From Pseudomonadota bacterium (GTDB lineage: Bacteria; Desulfobacterota; Desulfobulbia; Desulfobulbales; JAGXFP01): DNA of 44,338 nt. Within the stretch, counting starts at the first letter, position 1. Every line of letters begins with the position of its first letter. The stretch covers positions 1 to 44,338 of the forward strand of contig JAHJAA010000004.1 of assembly GCA_018814305.1 (NCBI GenBank), given 5' to 3'. This document shows, piece by piece, positions 23,487 to 35,044 of the stretch. The notes beneath the pieces are model-generated. The model was not told where the DNA came from and ran no database searches. It saw nothing but the letters and a program-made list of their open reading frames with translations. The position numbers and the translations under genes are program-made.

Positions 23487-24578
23487 ATGGGTGGTTTTAA
23501 ATTATCCGACCTTAACTTTAAATTATCTTTCCCCGGAAAGCAGAAGCTAGCCGTTGGCCTGGATATTGGGTCGCATGCCATCAAAGTGTGCCAACTTGAA
23601 TCAGCTGGAGATGGATACAAATTAGTTTCATTAGGAAGTGCAACGCTTCCAGCCGATGCAGTCGAAGATGGCGTTCTGAATGACGCCGAAGCTGTCGGCA
23701 AAGTCCTCGGAACACTGATCAAAAATCTTGGGTTATCCAAGAAAAGGGTAGCTATTTCCATTTCCGGGTATTCCGTTATTGTTAAAAAAATAAATCTGGC
23801 AGTCATGGAAGAAGAGGAACTCGCCTCGCATATCCAGGCTGAAGCCGAACAATATATCCCTTTTGATATCGATGAAGTTTATCTTGACTACCAAGACCTT
23901 CATACCAATACGGATGATGATGATCGGACGGACATCATGCTTGTCGCAGCAAAAAAAGATGTTGTCGACGGTTATCTTACCATGCTCACGGCAGCAGGTT
24001 TAAAAACAGTTGTTGTAGATGTTGACGCCTTTGCCCTTGAGAATGCCTATGGGTATAATTTTGGTGGTGAGGATGAAAATGTGGCACTGGTTGATATCGG
24101 TGCATCTAAAATGAATATCAACATCGTTGCGAAAGGAACATCGGTTCTCGCCAGAGACGTTGTCCTCGGCAGCAGGCTTCTAACCGAACAAATCCAAGGT
24201 CACTTTGATATTTCCTTTGAAGAAGCTGAAGACCTTAAGACAGGAAAGCAAGCCCCCGCCGACAAAAAAGAGGACCTTGAAGAAATTTTTGTTAACACCT
24301 GCACCCAATGGGTTACAGAGGTTAAAAGGGCTCTTGATTTTTATTATTCAAACTACCCGGACGAAACAATTAACCGAGTGGTATTGAGCGGAGGAGGAGC
24401 AAAGGTCAAAGGGCTTGCTAAACTTTTCACAGAAGAGACAGGTATCAAGAGCGAAATATTCAATCCTTTCGCGAGGGCGACTACCGACCCCAGTAAAATT
24501 GATTCTGATTATCTGAAAAATATTGCCCCTGAAATGGCTCTCTCAACTGGACTAGCAACACGTTCATCGGATATTTAA
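23487..24578 (+). CDS. pilM: Type IV pilus assembly protein PilM
   Basis: A 363-aa actin/FtsA-like cytoplasmic ATPase-fold protein that docks on the PilN N-terminus. The nucleotide-binding fold is visible in LAVGLDIGSHAIKV (21-34), VALVDIGASKMNI (about 196-208) and VVLSGGGAKVKGL (about 304-316). The stretch HIQAEAEQYIPFDIDEVYLD is characteristic of PilM. It is first of a pilM-N-O-P run, which forms the inner-membrane alignment complex between the motor and the secretin. Length is typical. AGGAAC lies upstream of the ATG. Confidence 0.93.
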   Translation: MGGFKLSDLNFKLSFPGKQKLAVGLDIGSHAIKVCQLESAGDGYKLVSLGSATLPADAVEDGVLNDAEAVGKVLGTLIKNLGLSKKRVAISISGYSVIVKKINLAVMEEEELASHIQAEAEQYIPFDIDEVYLDYQDLHTNTDDDDRTDIMLVAAKKDVVDGYLTMLTAAGLKTVVVDVDAFALENAYGYNFGGEDENVALVDIGASKMNINIVAKGTSVLARDVVLGSRLLTEQIQGHFDISFEEAEDLKTGKQAPADKKEDLEEIFVNTCTQWVTEVKRALDFYYSNYPDETINRVVLSGGGAKVKGLAKLFTEETGIKSEIFNPFARATTDPSKIDSDYLKNIAPEMALSTGLATRSSDI

Positions 24579-24669: not shown

Positions 24670-25233
24670 ATGATCCAAATAAATTTATTACCTGTTAAAC
24701 AGATTAAACTCAGGATGCAAGTCCGCAATGAGGCGGCAATATTCATCCTGACCCTTTTTATCGTCATCGTCGGATTGACCGGAATGTGTATGGCCAAAAA
24801 CGGGACGATCAAGAGCATGAAAGCAGACAATCAGGAATTAAGTACAAAGAAGGCATCCTATCAACCAATTCTGAACGAGATTGAAAAATTAAAGAAGGAC
24901 AAGGCAGAACAAGAGACCAAACTTGAAGTTATTAAAAAATTAAAAACCGGCTCCCAGACCGCTGTTATGGTACTTGACGAGATTGCCCGGTTAACCTTAA
25001 GTAACCGCCTCTGGCTAGCTTCTCTAACCCAAAACGCCAGCACCTTAAGTGTTGCTGGAACTGCCTTAGACAATGCAACCATTGCCCAATACATGGAACG
25101 AATCAACGCGTCCCCTTTCTTTCTGAATGTGGAACTATCAGGGACATCGCAACTCGTTGTAGCTGGAGCAAAATTGAAATCATTCACCTTGACAATAGCA
25201 ATCGCCCCGCCGGGTACCTCCGGTGGTAAGTAA
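24670..25233 (+). CDS. pilN: Type IV pilus assembly protein PilN
   Basis: A 187-aa inner-membrane protein. The first residues IQINLLPVK form the conserved PilM-binding peptide. One membrane helix (about 22-42) is followed by a coiled coil (about 45-95) and a ferredoxin-like periplasmic domain (LTLSNRLWLASLTQ onward). A 91-base gap without a gene separates it from pilM. Its partner PilO follows 16 bases later. Confidence 0.9.
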   Translation: MIQINLLPVKQIKLRMQVRNEAAIFILTLFIVIVGLTGMCMAKNGTIKSMKADNQELSTKKASYQPILNEIEKLKKDKAEQETKLEVIKKLKTGSQTAVMVLDEIARLTLSNRLWLASLTQNASTLSVAGTALDNATIAQYMERINASPFFLNVELSGTSQLVVAGAKLKSFTLTIAIAPPGTSGGK

Positions 25234-25249: not shown

Positions 25250-25861
25250 ATGCACCCACAGGTTGAAAAAATTAAAAAGGCTTACGAGAATTTTCTCGAC
25301 GAGAAACTTGCCCATATTAATCGGCAATATAAGTTGGGACTTCTTCTTGCTACCCTGATTGTACCGACAGTTTTGGTCTTTTTTTTCTTACTGCGCCCCA
25401 TGGGAGAAGAAATTGACAAACTTGCGAAGGACAATCAATACTTAAAGGGTGAAATTCAGAAAGTTGAGGCCTTAGCTGGAAAACTTGACGAGCATAAAGC
25501 TGAAAAGGCTGAAGTAGAACTTCGCTTAAAGGCAGCCTCACTCCTCCTCCCAAGACAAAAAGAGATTCCTCGACTTCTTACAAGCATATCAGAACAAGGC
25601 ACGAGCTCAGGTCTTGATTTTGTTTCTTTTTATCCGAGAGGGGAACAACCGTCACAGTTTTATTCGATTATTCCTGTTTCCATTACCGTTCTTGGGTCAT
25701 ACCATAAGATAGGTACTTTTTTGGATCGGATCAGCAAATTAAATCGAATCGTTACAGTTAATAGTCTTTCCTTAGGGGGGGCGCAATTGGTTGACAATGA
25801 AATGCGACTTTCTGCTTCACTTGAACTAACCACATATCGTTTTCAAGATAGTGCAAACTAG
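25250..25861 (+). CDS. pilO: Type IV pilus assembly protein PilO
   Basis: A 203-aa inner-membrane protein that pairs with PilN. A short cytoplasmic part (1-27), one membrane helix (about 29-48, ending LRPM), a coiled coil (about 52-95) and a periplasmic ferredoxin-like domain (EIPRLLTSISEQGTSSGLDF onward) are in the order expected. Start ATG 25250 has AAGGA upstream. Confidence 0.9.
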   Translation: MHPQVEKIKKAYENFLDEKLAHINRQYKLGLLLATLIVPTVLVFFFLLRPMGEEIDKLAKDNQYLKGEIQKVEALAGKLDEHKAEKAEVELRLKAASLLLPRQKEIPRLLTSISEQGTSSGLDFVSFYPRGEQPSQFYSIIPVSITVLGSYHKIGTFLDRISKLNRIVTVNSLSLGGAQLVDNEMRLSASLELTTYRFQDSAN

Positions 25862-25887: not shown

Positions 25888-26469
25888 ATGAATTTTTTTA
25901 AAAACAAAGCGATAAATATCTCAGGGGTATTACTCTCCTGTTGCTTCGCACTGACTTTATTTACAACTCCTCTCTTCGGACAAAATCATGCCCAGGATGA
26001 GCTTACGTTTGAGCAATCCGAGCAAACTGTTATGAGTGAGGAGATGTCCGCAGAAAATATTAAAATCACCCGCACCCTTGCTGAACTTTTGAAATCTATG
26101 AACATCAAAGCATTTAGCTATGAAGTTGAGGGAAGACCTGATCCTTTTATGCCTTTTATTTCCGACAGAACTTCTCCGGTTGCATCAGAAACATCTGATA
26201 CTGAAAAACTCACCGGGATGAGGCAGTATGAACCAGGGCAGTTGTCCCTGGTTGCTATCATGCTGTCAGATGATAATCCTATGGCAATGGTACAAGACTC
26301 AGCAGGCAAAGGGTATGTTATAAGACGCGGTACGAAAATCGGCAGGTCCGGTATTGTATCGGACATTATCGGAAATCAGGTTATCATTAAACAGTTGACT
26401 TATTCCATGTCCAAGGAAAGGAAATACAAAACTGTCGAGATGATTTTAAGAAAAGAGGGAGAAAAGTAG
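25888..26469 (+). CDS. pilP: Type IV pilus assembly protein PilP
   Basis: A 193-aa protein linking PilNO to the secretin. The N-terminal hydrophobic segment (about 10-30) has Cys18-Cys19 but no clean lipobox, so it may be a lipoprotein or a plain exported protein. The hallmark RPDPFMPF (82-89) and the C-terminal beta-domain (LVAIMLSDDNPMAMVQDSAG then VIRRGTKIG) identify PilP. Its TAG stop overlaps the GTG of the next gene by one base, implying coupled translation. Confidence 0.9.
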   Translation: MNFFKNKAINISGVLLSCCFALTLFTTPLFGQNHAQDELTFEQSEQTVMSEEMSAENIKITRTLAELLKSMNIKAFSYEVEGRPDPFMPFISDRTSPVASETSDTEKLTGMRQYEPGQLSLVAIMLSDDNPMAMVQDSAGKGYVIRRGTKIGRSGIVSDIIGNQVIIKQLTYSMSKERKYKTVEMILRKEGEK

Positions 26470-28715
26470 TGATATCCTCCATGATGAGTTTACGATCATT
26501 TTTCGGGTGGACTTTTTTATTAATCACACTGTCCGCTTCCTATGCTTTCGGAGCTGTGCCTGTAAAAGAAACAGCAATGGCGCCGAAATCAACGTCCTTC
26601 ACAATTAACAAAATCCAATGGGATCAACTCGGCTCTGATTACATACTCAAAATTGAAGGTGATTCGTCACCAACATATACAATGTATGAACTTTTTGAAC
26701 CCATGAGGGTTATAATTGATATAGCTGATGCGGCAATTGATAGTATGGTTAACCTTCCTTTTGAGATCCAGGGCGGTCCGGTATCCTTTGTCAATGGTAA
26801 AATGTTGGACGACCAAGAACCATTTATTGCGCGAATAGAGATTTATATAACTAATGAATCAACGTATTCAGTTGAAAGATCAAATAACGATATAATCGTC
26901 ACTTTTGCCAATGAAAGTTCGGAAAGCAGCGGTCAGGAAGCAGTTATTAATACTCCCAAAATCCCTCCGGTGGATCCTGAGATTAAGACTGAAACCATGG
27001 CGGGTAATGATAAAATTCAATCTTTGCCGTCTGGCGATTTTGTTGATGAAACTACCATCACAGTAAGTGATCTGATTACAACTACAACCCTGGATACAAT
27101 AGCTGGTATTGAGGCAACGGTTGAAAGTATTGAAATAAATACCAAATCTGAAGAAAACATATCCGCTCGGAACCTCTTTAATATTGAAATAAATCACCAA
27201 CCAAATGAAACATTATTAATGGTCAAAGCAGATGGGCCTATCCAAAATTTCAACGAAATCCTGCTTGGTGAAGACAAATCAACCAACAAACCGAATAGAT
27301 TATTCCTTGACCTGGATAACATCACACTTGTTGGCCCCGAAATACTCAAAGAAAGTGGTACTGCTCTAGCGAGAGTTCGTTTAACCAAAAAGCTCAATGG
27401 CTCTCGAATAATTCTTGATTCCGGACTTGATACTTTATTTGAATACTCAATTCAGGAACAAACTGACGGATTGCTGATAACTATTAAAGAACCTTCTGCG
27501 ACTACTTCTATCCTCGCTGGTATCATCGAAAAAACAGAGCAAACTGAAGTATTTCAAAATAGCCAGGATGTTGCGGCCTTAGATACTCCAAAAGATCAAG
27601 ATTCACTATCTGCCCAAGGTTCAACTAGTTCCCTTCCTTCAAATGGAATTGAATCGGATAGCCCCGAACCCGAACAACCTCAAATTGACTCGAAATCACC
27701 TGCGACCAAATCGGCAGATGATAAAACTCAGAAAAAAGACAATGCCACGTCCAACAGGTTAAGAGACTTTTCCTTTGCAGGATATAATAAAAAAAGGATA
27801 ACCGTAGATTTCTTTAAAATTGATTTACATAATGTGTTCCGATTATTTGGTGAGGTTAGCAACTTAAATATCGTCGTTGATGAATCAGTAGGCGGCACGC
27901 TGACATTAGCTCTAAATGATGTGCCCTGGGATTTTGCCTTAGACATTATTTTAAATTTAAAAGATCTCCAAAAAGAGGAACGGTTTAACACCATTGTCAT
28001 ATCACCAAAAAGCAAAAAATTCACCTGGCCTGAACGTTCTTTGGACACCTTAGAATTTAAAGCGGACTTAGACGTACTGGAAGTTCAAGCCCAGGATGCA
28101 ATTAAAATAAGTAAACGTCAGGAAATTCCGGAAACAGTCATAGAAGCGAAAAAACTCATTCATCAAGCCCAATCACATGAACGTGCAGGTAATTATCAAG
28201 CAGCGTTACCTCTATACGAAGAAGCATTTAAGAAGTGGTCGGACAATATTTTATTAGCACGTCGAATTGCAACTCTCTGTCTTGTTCATATTAACAGTAA
28301 TGCTAAGGCTATACATTACTCAAAAACGGCTTTGCAACTTAACCCCGGTGATACTGAGGCTGCTTTACTCACCGCAATTGGTTTGGCGCGGATGCAAAAG
28401 AAAGTTCAAGCAAAAGAATATTTTGATCTTGCTGTGAGCGGTTCAAAACCTTCCAGCGATGCTTTGGCAAGCTATTCAGCTTTCTGTGAGGAAAATGGGG
28501 ATTTCGATTGTTCCATGACCCTTCTTAAAAAGCATGAAGACCTTCACGGTGATACCCTTGAAACAATGATCAGTCGTGCTAGAATTTTTGATAAACAGGG
28601 TGATCATACAATGGCAATTAATGAATATCAGGCGATCCTGCTCTCCGGATTTTCTCTTCCTGGAGACCTTAAACGATTCATCCAAGGAAGACTGGCCGTA
28701 GCAGTAATGAATTAA
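26469..28715 (+). CDS. AMIN-STN-TPR protein: PilQ-like N-terminal half without the secretin pore
   Basis: A 748-aa exported protein (signal peptide 1-28, probable cut after SYAFG). It has two AMIN-like beta-domains (about 44-148 and 236-341), which bind peptidoglycan in PilQ. A low-complexity linker rich in Ser/Pro/Gln covers about 345-430. An STN/N0-like domain (443-515, KRITVDFFKIDLHNVFRLFG and LALNDVPWDFALDIIL) closely follows the PilQ pattern. Instead of N1 and the secretin barrel, residues about 557-745 are TPR-like helical repeats (ERAGNYQAALPLYEEAF). MSHA systems have a TPR protein, MshN, in this position, but not with these N-domains. The GTG start has GGGAG 8 bases upstream. Confidence 0.85.
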   Translation: MISSMMSLRSFFGWTFLLITLSASYAFGAVPVKETAMAPKSTSFTINKIQWDQLGSDYILKIEGDSSPTYTMYELFEPMRVIIDIADAAIDSMVNLPFEIQGGPVSFVNGKMLDDQEPFIARIEIYITNESTYSVERSNNDIIVTFANESSESSGQEAVINTPKIPPVDPEIKTETMAGNDKIQSLPSGDFVDETTITVSDLITTTTLDTIAGIEATVESIEINTKSEENISARNLFNIEINHQPNETLLMVKADGPIQNFNEILLGEDKSTNKPNRLFLDLDNITLVGPEILKESGTALARVRLTKKLNGSRIILDSGLDTLFEYSIQEQTDGLLITIKEPSATTSILAGIIEKTEQTEVFQNSQDVAALDTPKDQDSLSAQGSTSSLPSNGIESDSPEPEQPQIDSKSPATKSADDKTQKKDNATSNRLRDFSFAGYNKKRITVDFFKIDLHNVFRLFGEVSNLNIVVDESVGGTLTLALNDVPWDFALDIILNLKDLQKEERFNTIVISPKSKKFTWPERSLDTLEFKADLDVLEVQAQDAIKISKRQEIPETVIEAKKLIHQAQSHERAGNYQAALPLYEEAFKKWSDNILLARRIATLCLVHINSNAKAIHYSKTALQLNPGDTEAALLTAIGLARMQKKVQAKEYFDLAVSGSKPSSDALASYSAFCEENGDFDCSMTLLKKHEDLHGDTLETMISRARIFDKQGDHTMAINEYQAILLSGFSLPGDLKRFIQGRLAVAVMN

Positions 28716-28755
28716 AATGGGTTATTCTCACAAGGAAAAAAGAGAGAATTCTATT

Positions 28756-30441
28756 ATGAGACACGCACAGAAACGAATATCATGGGCTATTGCTGTTTTC
28801 TTAATGACAGCCCTCTTGTCCTGCACACCGAGCACTCCTCCACTCCAGGAGCGCGAAGTTAGCTCATCATCTGAATCAACCTCGCAGTTAAAGGCTGGTT
28901 CGATTGATGGAACAAAACCAAACAGTACAGCAAGTTCCTTGTCCGCACAGAATGGTGAGGCCCAAGCGAGTCTTCCTGTTAGATTCCAGACCCCATCATA
29001 TTCACTCAATCCAGATGATGAAAGTCTCACTCCAATGGGAGATAATGAAGAATTCGTAGTAAAAGTAGGAGCTGATATCTCTTCAACAACGGGTCCAGTC
29101 CTCCTCCGTGACATAATGAAGAGACTAGCTTCTTTAAAAAACATGAATATTAGTTGGGCAAGTGATGTTGATCAATACTCATTTGTTGATGTAGACATTC
29201 GAGCCGACGATGATTTTTTCAATGCCATCGATAATCTACTCAGACAACGTGATTACTTTCATGAAGTACAGGGAAATACCATTGTAATCAAATACAAAGA
29301 GACCAGAAAGTTTCATTTAGCAATGCCGTTCACTTCATCCAAATACTCAACTGCTCTTGGAGGTGATGTATTAGGATCCACTAAAGATACCAATATTAAA
29401 GGGAGTATGGAATTAACGAGTGAAGGTAATACTTTCGATATTTGGTTAAACATCAAAAACAATCTTGATCAAGTATTGCAAATTTGGGAAAACACTCAAG
29501 CTAATACCCCCCCTCCAACCCCAAAATCAACTGATGAAACAGGGGCCGCCGGATCAGCTGGAGTCCAAGATGCGGTAAAAGTATCACAACCTCAATCGGC
29601 CAAAGGATATTACACGATTGATAAGCCGATTGGTCTAATAACAGTTACTGCGCCCCGTTTGGTTTTGGAAAAGGTGGATAATTATCTGACCAATTTGAAA
29701 AAGGAATTGTATAAACAGATTTCGATCGAAGCAAAGATATTAGAAGTTACAGTTACTAACGAAAGGAAAACGGGTATCGATTGGAGTGATTTGCTCAGTG
29801 GTGGTTTATTTGATTTCACCATGCAGTTCGGTGACAGTAGTTTTAATCAACCACTTGGTCCGTCAGGAAGTCGAATGTTTACTATTGGTGCAAAAAACTT
29901 TAACCTTCTTTTAACTGCTATCGAAAAACAAGGAAATACTAAAATTCTAGCCAATCCTAAACTCAGTGTTATGAATGGCCAACCGGCAATGATTAATGTC
30001 GGTGAAAGTGTAACCTATATTGAATCGGTAACTTCAACCGTAAGTGAAGGTATTGTCACCTATACCGTAAATACTTCAAGTGTGATGTCGGGTTTAGGAA
30101 TGTCTGTGATCGCAACAATTCTAGATAATAATGAGGTTATTTTGAATCTTACCCCTGTAACCTCCAAACTTGATAAGCCCATTGAATACAAAAATTTCGG
30201 CGGAAATAATCAGGTTGGTTTGCCAGTTGTGAATCTTCGTGAGATGAGCACACTGGTCAGAGTTAAAAATGGGGAAATGTTAATCATTGGAGGATTAATT
30301 GATACAACTGATGATAACAATGATACCGAAGTCCCTCTTTTAGGTCGCATACCTATCATTAAAAACTTTTTCAGTAGTGATAGCAAAATTAAAGCAAACA
30401 AAGAGTTGATTATTTTGCTCAGGCCTCAGATAATTTCTTAA
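28756..30441 (+). CDS. Outer-membrane secretin lipoprotein, MshL/PilQ-like
   Basis: A 561-aa lipoprotein (lipobox LLSC, acylated C23) that should form the outer-membrane gate. An STN/N0-type domain (about 111-180: LLRDIMKRLASLKNMNISWA), a secretin N-domain and the barrel domain from about 310 are present. The barrel has ILEVTVTNERKTGIDWSDLL, ILANPKLSVMNGQPAMINVG, and the signature around EMLIIGGLIDTTDDNNDTEV then PLLGRIPIIKNFFSS. AMIN domains are missing and sit in the previous gene. I chose ATG 28756, which leads straight into the signal peptide and has GAGAG upstream; ATG 28717 lacks an SD. The closest type by memory is MSHA-pilus MshL. Confidence 0.88.
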   Translation: MRHAQKRISWAIAVFLMTALLSCTPSTPPLQEREVSSSSESTSQLKAGSIDGTKPNSTASSLSAQNGEAQASLPVRFQTPSYSLNPDDESLTPMGDNEEFVVKVGADISSTTGPVLLRDIMKRLASLKNMNISWASDVDQYSFVDVDIRADDDFFNAIDNLLRQRDYFHEVQGNTIVIKYKETRKFHLAMPFTSSKYSTALGGDVLGSTKDTNIKGSMELTSEGNTFDIWLNIKNNLDQVLQIWENTQANTPPPTPKSTDETGAAGSAGVQDAVKVSQPQSAKGYYTIDKPIGLITVTAPRLVLEKVDNYLTNLKKELYKQISIEAKILEVTVTNERKTGIDWSDLLSGGLFDFTMQFGDSSFNQPLGPSGSRMFTIGAKNFNLLLTAIEKQGNTKILANPKLSVMNGQPAMINVGESVTYIESVTSTVSEGIVTYTVNTSSVMSGLGMSVIATILDNNEVILNLTPVTSKLDKPIEYKNFGGNNQVGLPVVNLREMSTLVRVKNGEMLIIGGLIDTTDDNNDTEVPLLGRIPIIKNFFSSDSKIKANKELIILLRPQIIS

Positions 30442-31579: not shown

Positions 31580-34500
31580 GTGAAAGCGATGCTAATGAAT
31601 ATGATAGAATCAAAGTTCAGTTTCATAACCCTGGCGAAGTTATTTGTTCTTTTCGCCTGCACCCTAGTGCTTATTTCCTGCAATGGAGGTGGAACTCCGC
31701 CCCCTCCAGGATCGACGGATGGGAGTACATCGCTTTCCTTATCGGTTTCACAAACTTCTGTAAAGACCGACAATTCCGATTCTGCAACTGTTACAGCCAC
31801 TATCCTCAAGAATAATACTCCCATGGCCGGGGTAACCGTTCGATTTGCGGCCACTGCAGGCCAGATTAATACCACAAGTTTAATTACAGATGCCAATGGT
31901 ACCGCCAGTGTCACTTTTACTTCCGGTACAGTCAGTAAGGCCAATCGAGAAGCTACGATTACCGCAAGTGCCAGTGGATATAATACAGCTTCAATTCCAG
32001 TAAAAATTAGTGGTACCTATATCTCAGCCGAAACATCAAAATCCCAACTCGAAGTTGGCAATTCAGGGACATTAACTATTACGGTTAAAGATGGCGGTGA
32101 TATAGGAGTATACAACGCGGATGTCACAATAGCTCAAATCTCCGGAAACGGTTCGATGAATCTATCGGCAGCTACTGGAAAAACAGACGCTACTGGTGCT
32201 TTAAGTATTACCTACACAGCTGTATCTGACGGAAGTGTTGTATTACAAGTTAGTGCCCTCGGGGCTCAGACCCAGAGTACAATTGCCATAGGGTCGACCG
32301 ATAATGATGTACCAGAACCAGAAAAACCCGGTGAAGCTTCAACCATAATACTCTCCAGCACAAGTCCTACTCCAGCTATCGTTGGAATAGCAGGTGGTGG
32401 TGTTCAAGAATCCATTTCTATTAATTTTTTGGTCGTTGATATTAACAATGAGCCCGCAACTGAATTCTATCTGGTCGATTTCAGTATCCTTAACGGTGGT
32501 TTAAATGGTGGAGAAGCCCTCAATAATATCCAAGATACTACTGATTCCAATGCTATCGCCACAACGGTTTTCAATGCAGGAACCAAGGCTGGAACAGTCC
32601 AGATTCGGGCATCATTAACCAATGATCCAACTATTTTTGCCGATATTTCTGTTACGATTACCGGAGGTTTGCCCAGCGGCAATGCTTTAGGGTTATCTGC
32701 AACCCCATTAAATATTCAAGGCCGAAAAACCTGGGGACTCACCCAAGATATTAGAGTCAGTGTTGCTGATTATTATAGCAACCCAGTTGCACCAAATGCT
32801 CAGGTTCAGATGCAATCAGATTTTGCGGAGACTACCGGCACAGCACTTTTCGTTCCTGATTCTGGGGGACATTCATCATCAGCGAATGTTCAACTCACCA
32901 CAGGACCTCCCAACCCAATTGACGGTTTTGTTGAGGTGGTTGGGCAAACCATCGGGGGAAGTTATTCCAAGGTATTATCTTTGGCCGTTGATCCTAACAA
33001 TTCCAATATAATTTATGCGGGATCAGATGGGGGGGGTATTTTTAAATCCTCTGATGGTGGGACAAATTGGAACAATATCGGCTCGCCATTAAAAGAAATC
33101 GGCGCTGCTAAGTTTAAAAATCTAACGGGAACTCTTGTTCGTGATATTATAATCGACTCAAATAACTCCAGTGTAGTTTATGCCGCTACTGATAAGGGAG
33201 TTTTTGTGACAACCAATAGCGGGGAAGCCTGGCATACCCTCACTGGTCTTCGCAGAATCGAGGGTGATTACCTTGGTTTAACCACTGGGTCCTATTACAC
33301 TTTATTCATGACCTATCCCGAATATTATGACGGCTACGGAGAAATATTTGAATTTAGTTACGCACATAGTGGTTCAAGGTCACGAACAAAAATCTATGTA
33401 AATGGCAGCGAGGTTGATAATTATCTCATCTCTGGAAATATGATTCAATTTGTTTCAGCCAACTCCCCGTTGGCATCAGGGTATGTTATCTCAGCTGATT
33501 ATGATACATCTTCCTCGTTACCAAACAAACCGGTTTACGCTCTGGCTATTGATCCAACCCCAACCGATTTCGATGTTGCGCTTGGACATGCTAAGACAAT
33601 TTATGCCGGGATTTATGGAGATGGGGTATGGAAAACTTCAAATGGCGGTAAATCATGGAAAAAGATTTCAACCATGGCTCCAGGACAAGGTGTAACGTTC
33701 GGCAGAAATGTCCTTACTATGGAAATTAATTCTCTTTCTCCTTCCGAATTATTTGCCGGGACTGATGGAGAGGGACTCTTCCACAGTATAGATAGTGGCT
33801 TGACTTGGACTAAAATGACCGGAACTATCTCCAATTCCATTAATGAAACCGAGGTCAGGGATATTACCATAGCCCCACTTAGCGGTAAGGTTAATGATAT
33901 ATGGATTGCCGGGAAAAATGGAATTCATTATTCCAATGACGGGGGGGCCTCTTGGCGAACCCCTTCGATAAATGTTCAAAATTCAGACCCTAATAACACT
34001 GATGTTCGTGCCATTGTTCGAGACCCTGTAGATGCTACTCTTTATGCTGCCACCTTCGGTAATGTATTAGATCGTTCATCACCCCATGGCGGCATTTTTT
34101 CATCAACCGATGGCGGCGAGACATGGAGCAAAACCTCTGATATTTCATCGGTTACCGGGGCCCACACCATCGAAGCCTTAGCCATCGCTGGTCAAAGTGG
34201 CAATGATCTTCTGATAGCTGGCACTGAAGGTAGATCAGTGTACATTAGTAATGATAGTGGTCAAAATTGGAATAAAAAGAACGGAACAAACTCAGCAAGT
34301 ATAACGAATACCCTTTTTACCACGATCCGGCTTCTTCACTCTGGCCCTATGTCTGGGATTGGCTTTGAACAACTGCTCTGCGGATATTATCAAGGAGCAG
34401 GAGTATGTGGTGAAATATGGGCTGGCGAATCAGCACAGTTTTACGTCGATATATCCGATGATTTAGGTCACACTTTAACCAGCGGAACATCTTATGCGGC

Positions 34501-35044
34501 CACCGCAAGTCCCGGAATACTTACCGGAACAATTTCCGAGACCTTACCTGACGCCACATACGGAAATACAGATTATTACCATACGTGGTATAACGAACCC
34601 ACCCTTACTGAAGATACGGTTGGGGAGTTCACTATCAATGTTAATGGAAGTAATGGAACCAGTAGTCTGAAAGTCGGCTTACTGCTCAGAGCTAAATTAC
34701 AAGGTCGCTCTGGAGAAGACGCAGTGCCTTCTCTAGCCCTTTCCATTTCAGCTACAGGTAACAGCACTTCTACATCACTGAATGGATATGGTGGTTCAGG
34801 TGGCCCTTATGAATATGGTTCTTCTAGTTCTAGGGGATCTATTGATAGCAATGGAAATTACTCTTATTCGAATAATGGCTTAATTGCTGGTGATACAGAT
34901 ACTGACACCATTAGCATTTATGACTTAAATATGTGTTATGGCGACGTTAATACTTGCGGAGGAGTTCTTCATTCTTGCAGTTCTTACCTCGAAACGTGTC
35001 GTTCTATACAAATACCTGTTGAAATATCCAAAGAAGCTCTGTAA
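31580..35044 (+). CDS. Large lipoprotein: Ig-like (Big_1) domains plus beta-propeller
   Basis: 1154 aa. Signal peptide with lipobox LISC (C34), then a Gly/Pro linker. Four Ig-like units fill about 48-470; the first two are clearly of the Big_1/invasin kind (NNTPMAGVTVRFAATAGQIN, ITDANGTASVTF). About 470-905 is a propeller with seven Asp-boxes (SSDGGTNW, TTNSGEAW, TSNGGKSW, SIDSGLTW, SNDGGASW, STDGGETW, SNDSGQNW), interrupted at about 560-650 by a Tyr-rich insert. A further beta-domain (about 945-1085) and a tail with four cysteines (1120-1140) follow. Probably a surface or periplasmic adhesin-like partner of the pilus machine. The GTG start lacks a clear SD; ATGs at 31589, 31595 and 31601 are alternatives. 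Confidence 0.8.
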   Translation: MKAMLMNMIESKFSFITLAKLFVLFACTLVLISCNGGGTPPPPGSTDGSTSLSLSVSQTSVKTDNSDSATVTATILKNNTPMAGVTVRFAATAGQINTTSLITDANGTASVTFTSGTVSKANREATITASASGYNTASIPVKISGTYISAETSKSQLEVGNSGTLTITVKDGGDIGVYNADVTIAQISGNGSMNLSAATGKTDATGALSITYTAVSDGSVVLQVSALGAQTQSTIAIGSTDNDVPEPEKPGEASTIILSSTSPTPAIVGIAGGGVQESISINFLVVDINNEPATEFYLVDFSILNGGLNGGEALNNIQDTTDSNAIATTVFNAGTKAGTVQIRASLTNDPTIFADISVTITGGLPSGNALGLSATPLNIQGRKTWGLTQDIRVSVADYYSNPVAPNAQVQMQSDFAETTGTALFVPDSGGHSSSANVQLTTGPPNPIDGFVEVVGQTIGGSYSKVLSLAVDPNNSNIIYAGSDGGGIFKSSDGGTNWNNIGSPLKEIGAAKFKNLTGTLVRDIIIDSNNSSVVYAATDKGVFVTTNSGEAWHTLTGLRRIEGDYLGLTTGSYYTLFMTYPEYYDGYGEIFEFSYAHSGSRSRTKIYVNGSEVDNYLISGNMIQFVSANSPLASGYVISADYDTSSSLPNKPVYALAIDPTPTDFDVALGHAKTIYAGIYGDGVWKTSNGGKSWKKISTMAPGQGVTFGRNVLTMEINSLSPSELFAGTDGEGLFHSIDSGLTWTKMTGTISNSINETEVRDITIAPLSGKVNDIWIAGKNGIHYSNDGGASWRTPSINVQNSDPNNTDVRAIVRDPVDATLYAATFGNVLDRSSPHGGIFSSTDGGETWSKTSDISSVTGAHTIEALAIAGQSGNDLLIAGTEGRSVYISNDSGQNWNKKNGTNSASITNTLFTTIRLLHSGPMSGIGFEQLLCGYYQGAGVCGEIWAGESAQFYVDISDDLGHTLTSGTSYAATASPGILTGTISETLPDATYGNTDYYHTWYNEPTLTEDTVGEFTINVNGSNGTSSLKVGLLLRAKLQGRSGEDAVPSLALSISATGNSTSTSLNGYGGSGGPYEYGSSSSRGSIDSNGNYSYSNNGLIAGDTDTDTISIYDLNMCYGDVNTCGGVLHSCSSYLETCRSIQIPVEISKEAL

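Follow-up and report, generated by a model that had tools for sequence, protein, structure and literature searches.

Type IVa pilus machines are generally assumed to have the single-chain PilQ as their fixed outer part, and the secretins of type IVb and MSHA pili function without the PilQ front half. PilP binds the N0 domain of PilQ (PMC3441751), and the AMIN part of PilQ binds peptidoglycan and brings PilMNOP to the septum via PilP, before the secretin is assembled (PMC5285504). In a further system TadD, a TPR lipoprotein, assembles and places its secretin (PMC10499894). A broad survey of type IV filaments found secretins to be little exchanged between systems (PMC6668835). The operon described here looks like an exception to this rule: its type IVa pilus genes come with a replaced pore and a predicted adaptor derived from PilQ. 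A search of the open literature, subscription journals lying outside its scope, returned no description of this variant.

Two genes in the place of pilQ

The window analyzed here is a stretch of 44,338 nucleotides from a Desulfobulbales genome (assembly GCA_018814305.1, contig JAHJAA010000004.1), in which a tightly packed run of genes, from pilM to a gene denoted C352, lies on one strand (+). The alignment complex is represented by pilM, its actin-like cytoplasmic part (23487..24578; TIGR01175, 284 bits against a cut-off of 133), pilN (24670..25233; Pfam PilN, 60.5 bits), pilO (25250..25861; Pfam PilO, 128.9 bits) and pilP, the expected partner of a PilQ-type N0 domain (25888..26469; Pfam PilP, 26.2 bits, narrowly above the cut-off of 25.6), so that all four genes are present upstream of gene A with matches above the cut-offs of the Pfam or NCBIfam models. 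Gene A (26469..28715) overlaps the pilP stop by 1 base, and its own stop lies 1 base from the start of gene B (28717..30441); re-location of the open reading frames placed both genes behind pilMNOP, where the initial annotation had them. Two PilT-family ATPases above cut-off are encoded elsewhere in the genome, outside the operon, which suggests a retractile pilus.

The last gene of the run, C352 (30458..31516), codes for a putative lipoprotein of 352 aa without a Pfam match and is the gene behind B in roughly half of the loci from Desulfobulbales. Genes of the same type are located between pilP and gene A in one other locus (L149, 10618-11808) and after a canonical PilQ in another (L154, 12462-13670); judged by these neighborhoods, C352 is likely to be an undescribed accessory of both architectures. 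The pilus operon is adjoined by a gene (31580-35044) for a putative surface lipoprotein of 1154 aa with Ig-like (Big_1) and BNR/sortilin-type repeats; genes related to it occur only in several close relatives.

The 748-aa product of gene A consists of a signal peptide, two AMIN domains, a PilQ-type N0 domain and a TPR domain. A Pfam search of the whole protein detected AMIN in two stretches (E = 2.5e-8), STN (1.2e-7) and TPR (1.2e-7), and no Secretin domain, and the AlphaFold model, confident except in disordered linkers, contains two beta domains, an N0 fold and 11 helices at the corresponding positions. AMIN domain 1 (residues 44-147; 26598..26909) encompasses the Pfam match at residues 60-144, AMIN domain 2 (residues 235-340; 27171..27488) corresponds to the second Pfam stretch, the N0 domain (residues 443-513; 27795..28007) is supported by the STN match, by similarity to PilQ N0 and by its conservation, and the 11 helices form the TPR domain (residues 555-747; 28131..28709). 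This domain make-up is the one initially read from the gene; the TsaP-like role that had also been considered for it found no backing, the Pfam search having returned no LysM match.

The AMIN-N0 half of gene A descends from PilQ. Its similarity to the Myxococcus xanthus PilQ extends over the AMIN-N0 part at an E value of 7e-46, matches to Pseudomonas aeruginosa PilQ and to the solved N0 of Neisseria PilQ were likewise obtained, and the top Foldseek match is again M. xanthus PilQ. The NCBIfam PilQ model TIGR02515 aligns with residues 442-558 only, and a search of plasmids with gene A retrieved nothing beyond N0-sized matches, all to PilQ. A profile built from the gene A N0 domain retrieved 11 of 11 canonical PilQ N0 domains with 44-77 bits and did not retrieve any gene B protein; every A carries the PilQ-type N0, and no B does. 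It is also the most conserved part of either protein, with a mean majority share of 0.86, followed by the N0-like domain of B (0.77), the TPR domain (0.62), the B barrel (0.61) and AMIN domain 1 (0.50).

The fold match of the TPR domain is less specific. Over about 190 residues it superimposes on PilF and PilW (Z scores of 18.1 and 18.0, respectively) and it also matches the fold of MamA, but many unrelated generic TPR proteins fit at similar Z scores and fill the match list of the fold search. A lipobox-like motif is present in only 3 of 76 A proteins, so A is not a lipoprotein. The PilF model TIGR02521 gave no match above its cut-off in this genome, nor did it in 14 control genomes, and we accordingly discarded the missing PilF as an argument.

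Origin of the gene B secretin

Gene B, 574 aa long, contains a Pfam Secretin domain (133.7 bits) whose barrel spans residues 401-573 (29917..30435), and it passes, narrowly, the cut-off of the MshL model TIGR02519 (254 against 250.2 bits), in agreement with the initial reading of the barrel as a separate MshL-like lipoprotein. Scores fall far below cut-off for the NCBIfam PilQ model (122.9 against 284.35 bits), the type IVb model TIGR02520 (94.1 against 287.65 bits) and the GspD model. Lipobox-like motifs were detected in 59 of 70 B proteins. The structural model of B is weaker than that of A (mean pLDDT 65.5) and shows an N0-like unit, N1 and the barrel; among PDB structures, the type IVb pilus protein BfpB matches it best. 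The STN domain previously ascribed to gene B has no Pfam match, although the model does place an N0-like unit at about residues 116-200 (29062..29316). This unit is not of the PilQ type, and a profile made from it retrieves B proteins only. Matches to TcpQ, weak throughout (best E = 0.005), occur inside 20 of 34 B homologs.

In a phylogenetic tree of the last 300 residues of secretins, in which some sequences form long branches, all 19 B secretins fall into one group (88/96) and a further group unites the barrels of PilQ and GspD (100/99). A clade constrained to hold B together with PilQ is strongly rejected (log-likelihood lower by 84.9, p-AU 6e-143, some branches of the set being long), and the B group is placed, again with long branches, beside a type IVb-like secretin and a Deferribacter plasmid secretin. 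A PilQ origin of the gene B barrel thus appears very unlikely, and gene B is, as judged from sequence comparison, a lipoprotein secretin of MshL/type IVb descent whose exact place among these is loose given the long branches. Since B does not group with the PilQ barrels, the barrel was replaced rather than cut off, with the PilQ front half kept and joined to TPRs. The initial description of a PilQ function split over two genes therefore holds insofar as PilQ parts lie on two adjacent genes, throughout the order, and is misleading with regard to the barrel, which is not PilQ-derived; plain fission of PilQ is rejected by the secretin tree and the AU test, to be read with caution given the long branches in part of the set.

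The narrow pass of the MshL cut-off might be taken to mean that A and B make up an MSHA-type system, with MshL and an MshN-like TPR protein, and in Legionella a TPR protein is indeed encoded two genes behind mshL. Gene A has no alignable similarity to that Legionella protein, however, and the tree does not place Legionella MshL within the B group. Furthermore, no MshM-type ATPase gene lies beside gene B, where the next gene, C352, encodes no ATPase, whereas true PilM, PilN, PilO and PilP are encoded upstream and A carries the PilQ AMIN-N0 part. With Legionella as the comparison, the absence of the gene set speaks against membership of the operon in an MSHA system, and we regard this reading as highly improbable.

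Distribution of the arrangement and other secretins of the genome

Homologs of gene A were found in 55 of 58 relatives and, with intact frames, in 134 of the 145 genomes sampled from the class, all belonging in this sample to one order, which the labels of named loci indicate to be Desulfobulbales. A scan of named genomes yielded 80 A loci, labeled mostly as Desulfobulbales, Desulfobulbaceae, Desulfocapsaceae, Desulfurivibrionaceae or just deltaproteobacteria and including the cultured genera Desulfogranum, Desulfoprunum, Desulforhopalus and Desulfobulbus. Wherever the contig reaches, these loci share the order pilMNOP-A-B, frequently flanked, like that of the window, by lepB-pyrB-pyrC upstream and uvrA downstream. 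Of 75 loci that could be scored, 73 have gene B immediately behind gene A; the remaining two have gene A read in two frames, again with gene B as its next neighbor. This survey of pilMNOP neighborhoods, which the initial annotation had proposed, shows an arrangement that is stable across the order. It also bears on the reading of A and B as the pieces of a PilQ that was recently broken or underwent fission, or as an assembly error. The two genes do occupy the PilQ position, and TIGR02515 matches A in front and B behind, but the frames are intact and conserved, TPRs stand where N1 and barrel would be expected, and the B barrel is not derived from PilQ. A broken or misassembled PilQ is ruled out by the conservation of A and B, and we give this explanation practically no weight.

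The genome encodes five secretins including gene B. Three of these (L010, L011 and L012, on contigs 48, 70 and 35, respectively) lie among GspE-, GspF- and pseudopilin-like genes and have GspD-like neighbors, as read from the sequence; this genome thus seems to carry three type II secretion-like systems. Contig 35 also harbors a gene (L169, 933-5339) for a protein of 1468 aa that, as judged from its sequence, resembles PilY1; pilin-like genes and a gene for a PilB-like ATPase lie next to it.

The fifth secretin, on contig 24, is short and PilQ-like and lacks AMIN; with its pieces joined, it passes the PilQ cut-off (288.8 against 284.35 bits). One could therefore propose that PilMNOP of the window uses this secretin and that A and B belong elsewhere. 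The contig 24 gene is, however, part of a cluster of its own (L013, 4492-12658) with PilN- and PilO-like genes, a T2SSE ATPase, a T2SSF/PilC-like gene and several genes for N-methylation pilins. Moreover, of the 59 near-complete genomes from the order, only 20 have any PilQ match above cut-off and 39 have none, while A and B stay with pilMNOP. All five inspected PilQ-hit loci with a clear frame comprise short secretins, with no AMIN detected, among their own pilus-like genes. The complete pilQ elsewhere in the genome that the initial annotation had named as a possible alternative partner of this pilMNOP was thus not found, the sole other PilQ-like secretin residing in a separate cluster, and service of the contig 24 secretin to the window PilMNOP is unlikely, to the point that we would attach only a slight probability to it. 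Clusters resembling that of contig 24 recur in the order.

Beyond the order, a sample of the phylum comprising 198 genomes, 8 of them Desulfobulbales, contained at least eight non-Desulfobulbales genomes with a barrel-less N0-TPR protein. All eight of these A loci have a full-length B as the next gene, and pilP precedes A directly or, in a single case, with C352 in between. Pfam detected no AMIN in six of the eight proteins; the remaining two score above and just below the cut-off, respectively. Because AMIN is mostly absent outside the order and N0-TPR and B stay, the variant has N0-TPR together with B as its invariant core, and AMIN comes and goes. Eleven contrast loci of the phylum have, in the same place, a one-piece N0-secretin PilQ, in most cases with AMIN. 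On a PilM-PilN-PilO tree the variant requires two to three state changes. In one family, represented by two genomes, PilMNO group with those of genomes with canonical PilQ (96/85), while B groups with B of the other non-Desulfobulbales lineage (96/84). This mismatch hints, in a thin sampling, that A and B can move jointly into another pilMNOP operon; the tree of A, which has no outgroup, neither backs nor opposes such a transfer.

A possible division of labor and comparison with known systems

Taken together with the AMIN, PilP and TadD precedents, the restriction of the PilQ-type N0 to A and its outstanding conservation lead us to propose A as an adaptor. The operon would build the type IVa alignment complex PilMNOP, with an outer-membrane exit made of two proteins in place of PilQ. 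Gene B would provide a lipid-anchored pore; by homology, the AMIN domains of A would hold peptidoglycan and its PilQ-type N0 would dock onto PilP; and the TPR domain, standing where the barrel was lost, might link A to B in the manner of a PilF- or TadD-like secretin helper, as adjacency and fold suggest. A and B would then act in one pilus. We consider this two-protein exit, with B as the pore and A as a PilQ without barrel connecting wall, PilP and B, to be a reasonably probable model, in which A most likely is the adaptor coupling the cell wall and PilP to B. The adaptor idea of the initial annotation, which combined the N-terminal part of PilQ with an MshN- or PilF-like TPR domain, would fit all the data. 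Counted against the model are the N0-like domain of B, which might dock PilP itself, the unspecific fold match of the TPR domain, the fact that A, unlike PilF and TadD, is not a lipoprotein, and the second PilQ-like secretin in the genome.

The chief competing explanation is that PilQ is replaced by B alone, which would dock PilP through an N0-like domain of its own, with A serving as an accessory that is bound to the wall and acts in positioning or regulation rather than as a coupler. The good conservation of that domain (0.77) speaks for it, as does the precedent of type IVb and MSHA secretins. Yet the known PilP receptor, the PilQ-type N0, is solely on A, where it is the most conserved part (0.86), and the loss of AMIN from six of the eight non-Desulfobulbales A proteins that keep N0-TPR argues against a mere wall anchor. 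We therefore regard this explanation as rather unlikely and prefer A as the adaptor. A broader and more tentative proposal, for which we would claim somewhat less than even chances, is that of an order-wide PilQ-less type IVa pilus, in which the PilQ-derived N0-TPR adaptor would let PilMNOP drive a foreign secretin of the MSHA/type IVb type and the pair would move between operons as a cassette.

That a whole sulfur-cycling order changed the pore and kept the PilQ docking half illustrates a way in which the exit channel of a pilus machine can be exchanged. Binding of the wall, docking to PilP and formation of the pore would be on different genes and each separately testable, and genome surveys that seek a one-piece PilQ will miss or misname such pili.

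Among the known systems, PilQ of M. xanthus, P. aeruginosa and N. meningitidis shares with the A-B pair the place behind pilMNOP and the homologous AMIN and N0 domains of A; A differs in having neither N1 nor barrel and in ending with TPRs, the pore being a separate lipoprotein that is not PilQ. MshL, the secretin of the MSHA pilus, resembles B in the narrow pass of its model, but the MSHA gene set is absent here and Legionella MshL stands apart from the B group. BfpB and other type IVb secretins are lipoproteins like B, and BfpB is its best structural match, whereas B remains below the TIGR02520 cut-off and has PilMNOP, not a type IVb set, as its partner. The TPR secretin helpers PilF/PilW and TadD/MshN have a TPR domain of similar length and fold, yet A carries AMIN-N0 and is not a lipoprotein, and the TPR match is unspecific. 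The nearest architectural cousin, likened by description, is PflA of the Campylobacter flagellar motor, in which an AMIN-like domain is followed by TPRs and which works beside PilMNO homologs (PMC11870540); it differs from A in its 17 TPRs, in having no N0 described and in being flagellar. The AMIN-N0-TPR proteins might resemble intermediates toward such AMIN-TPR flagellar scaffolds.
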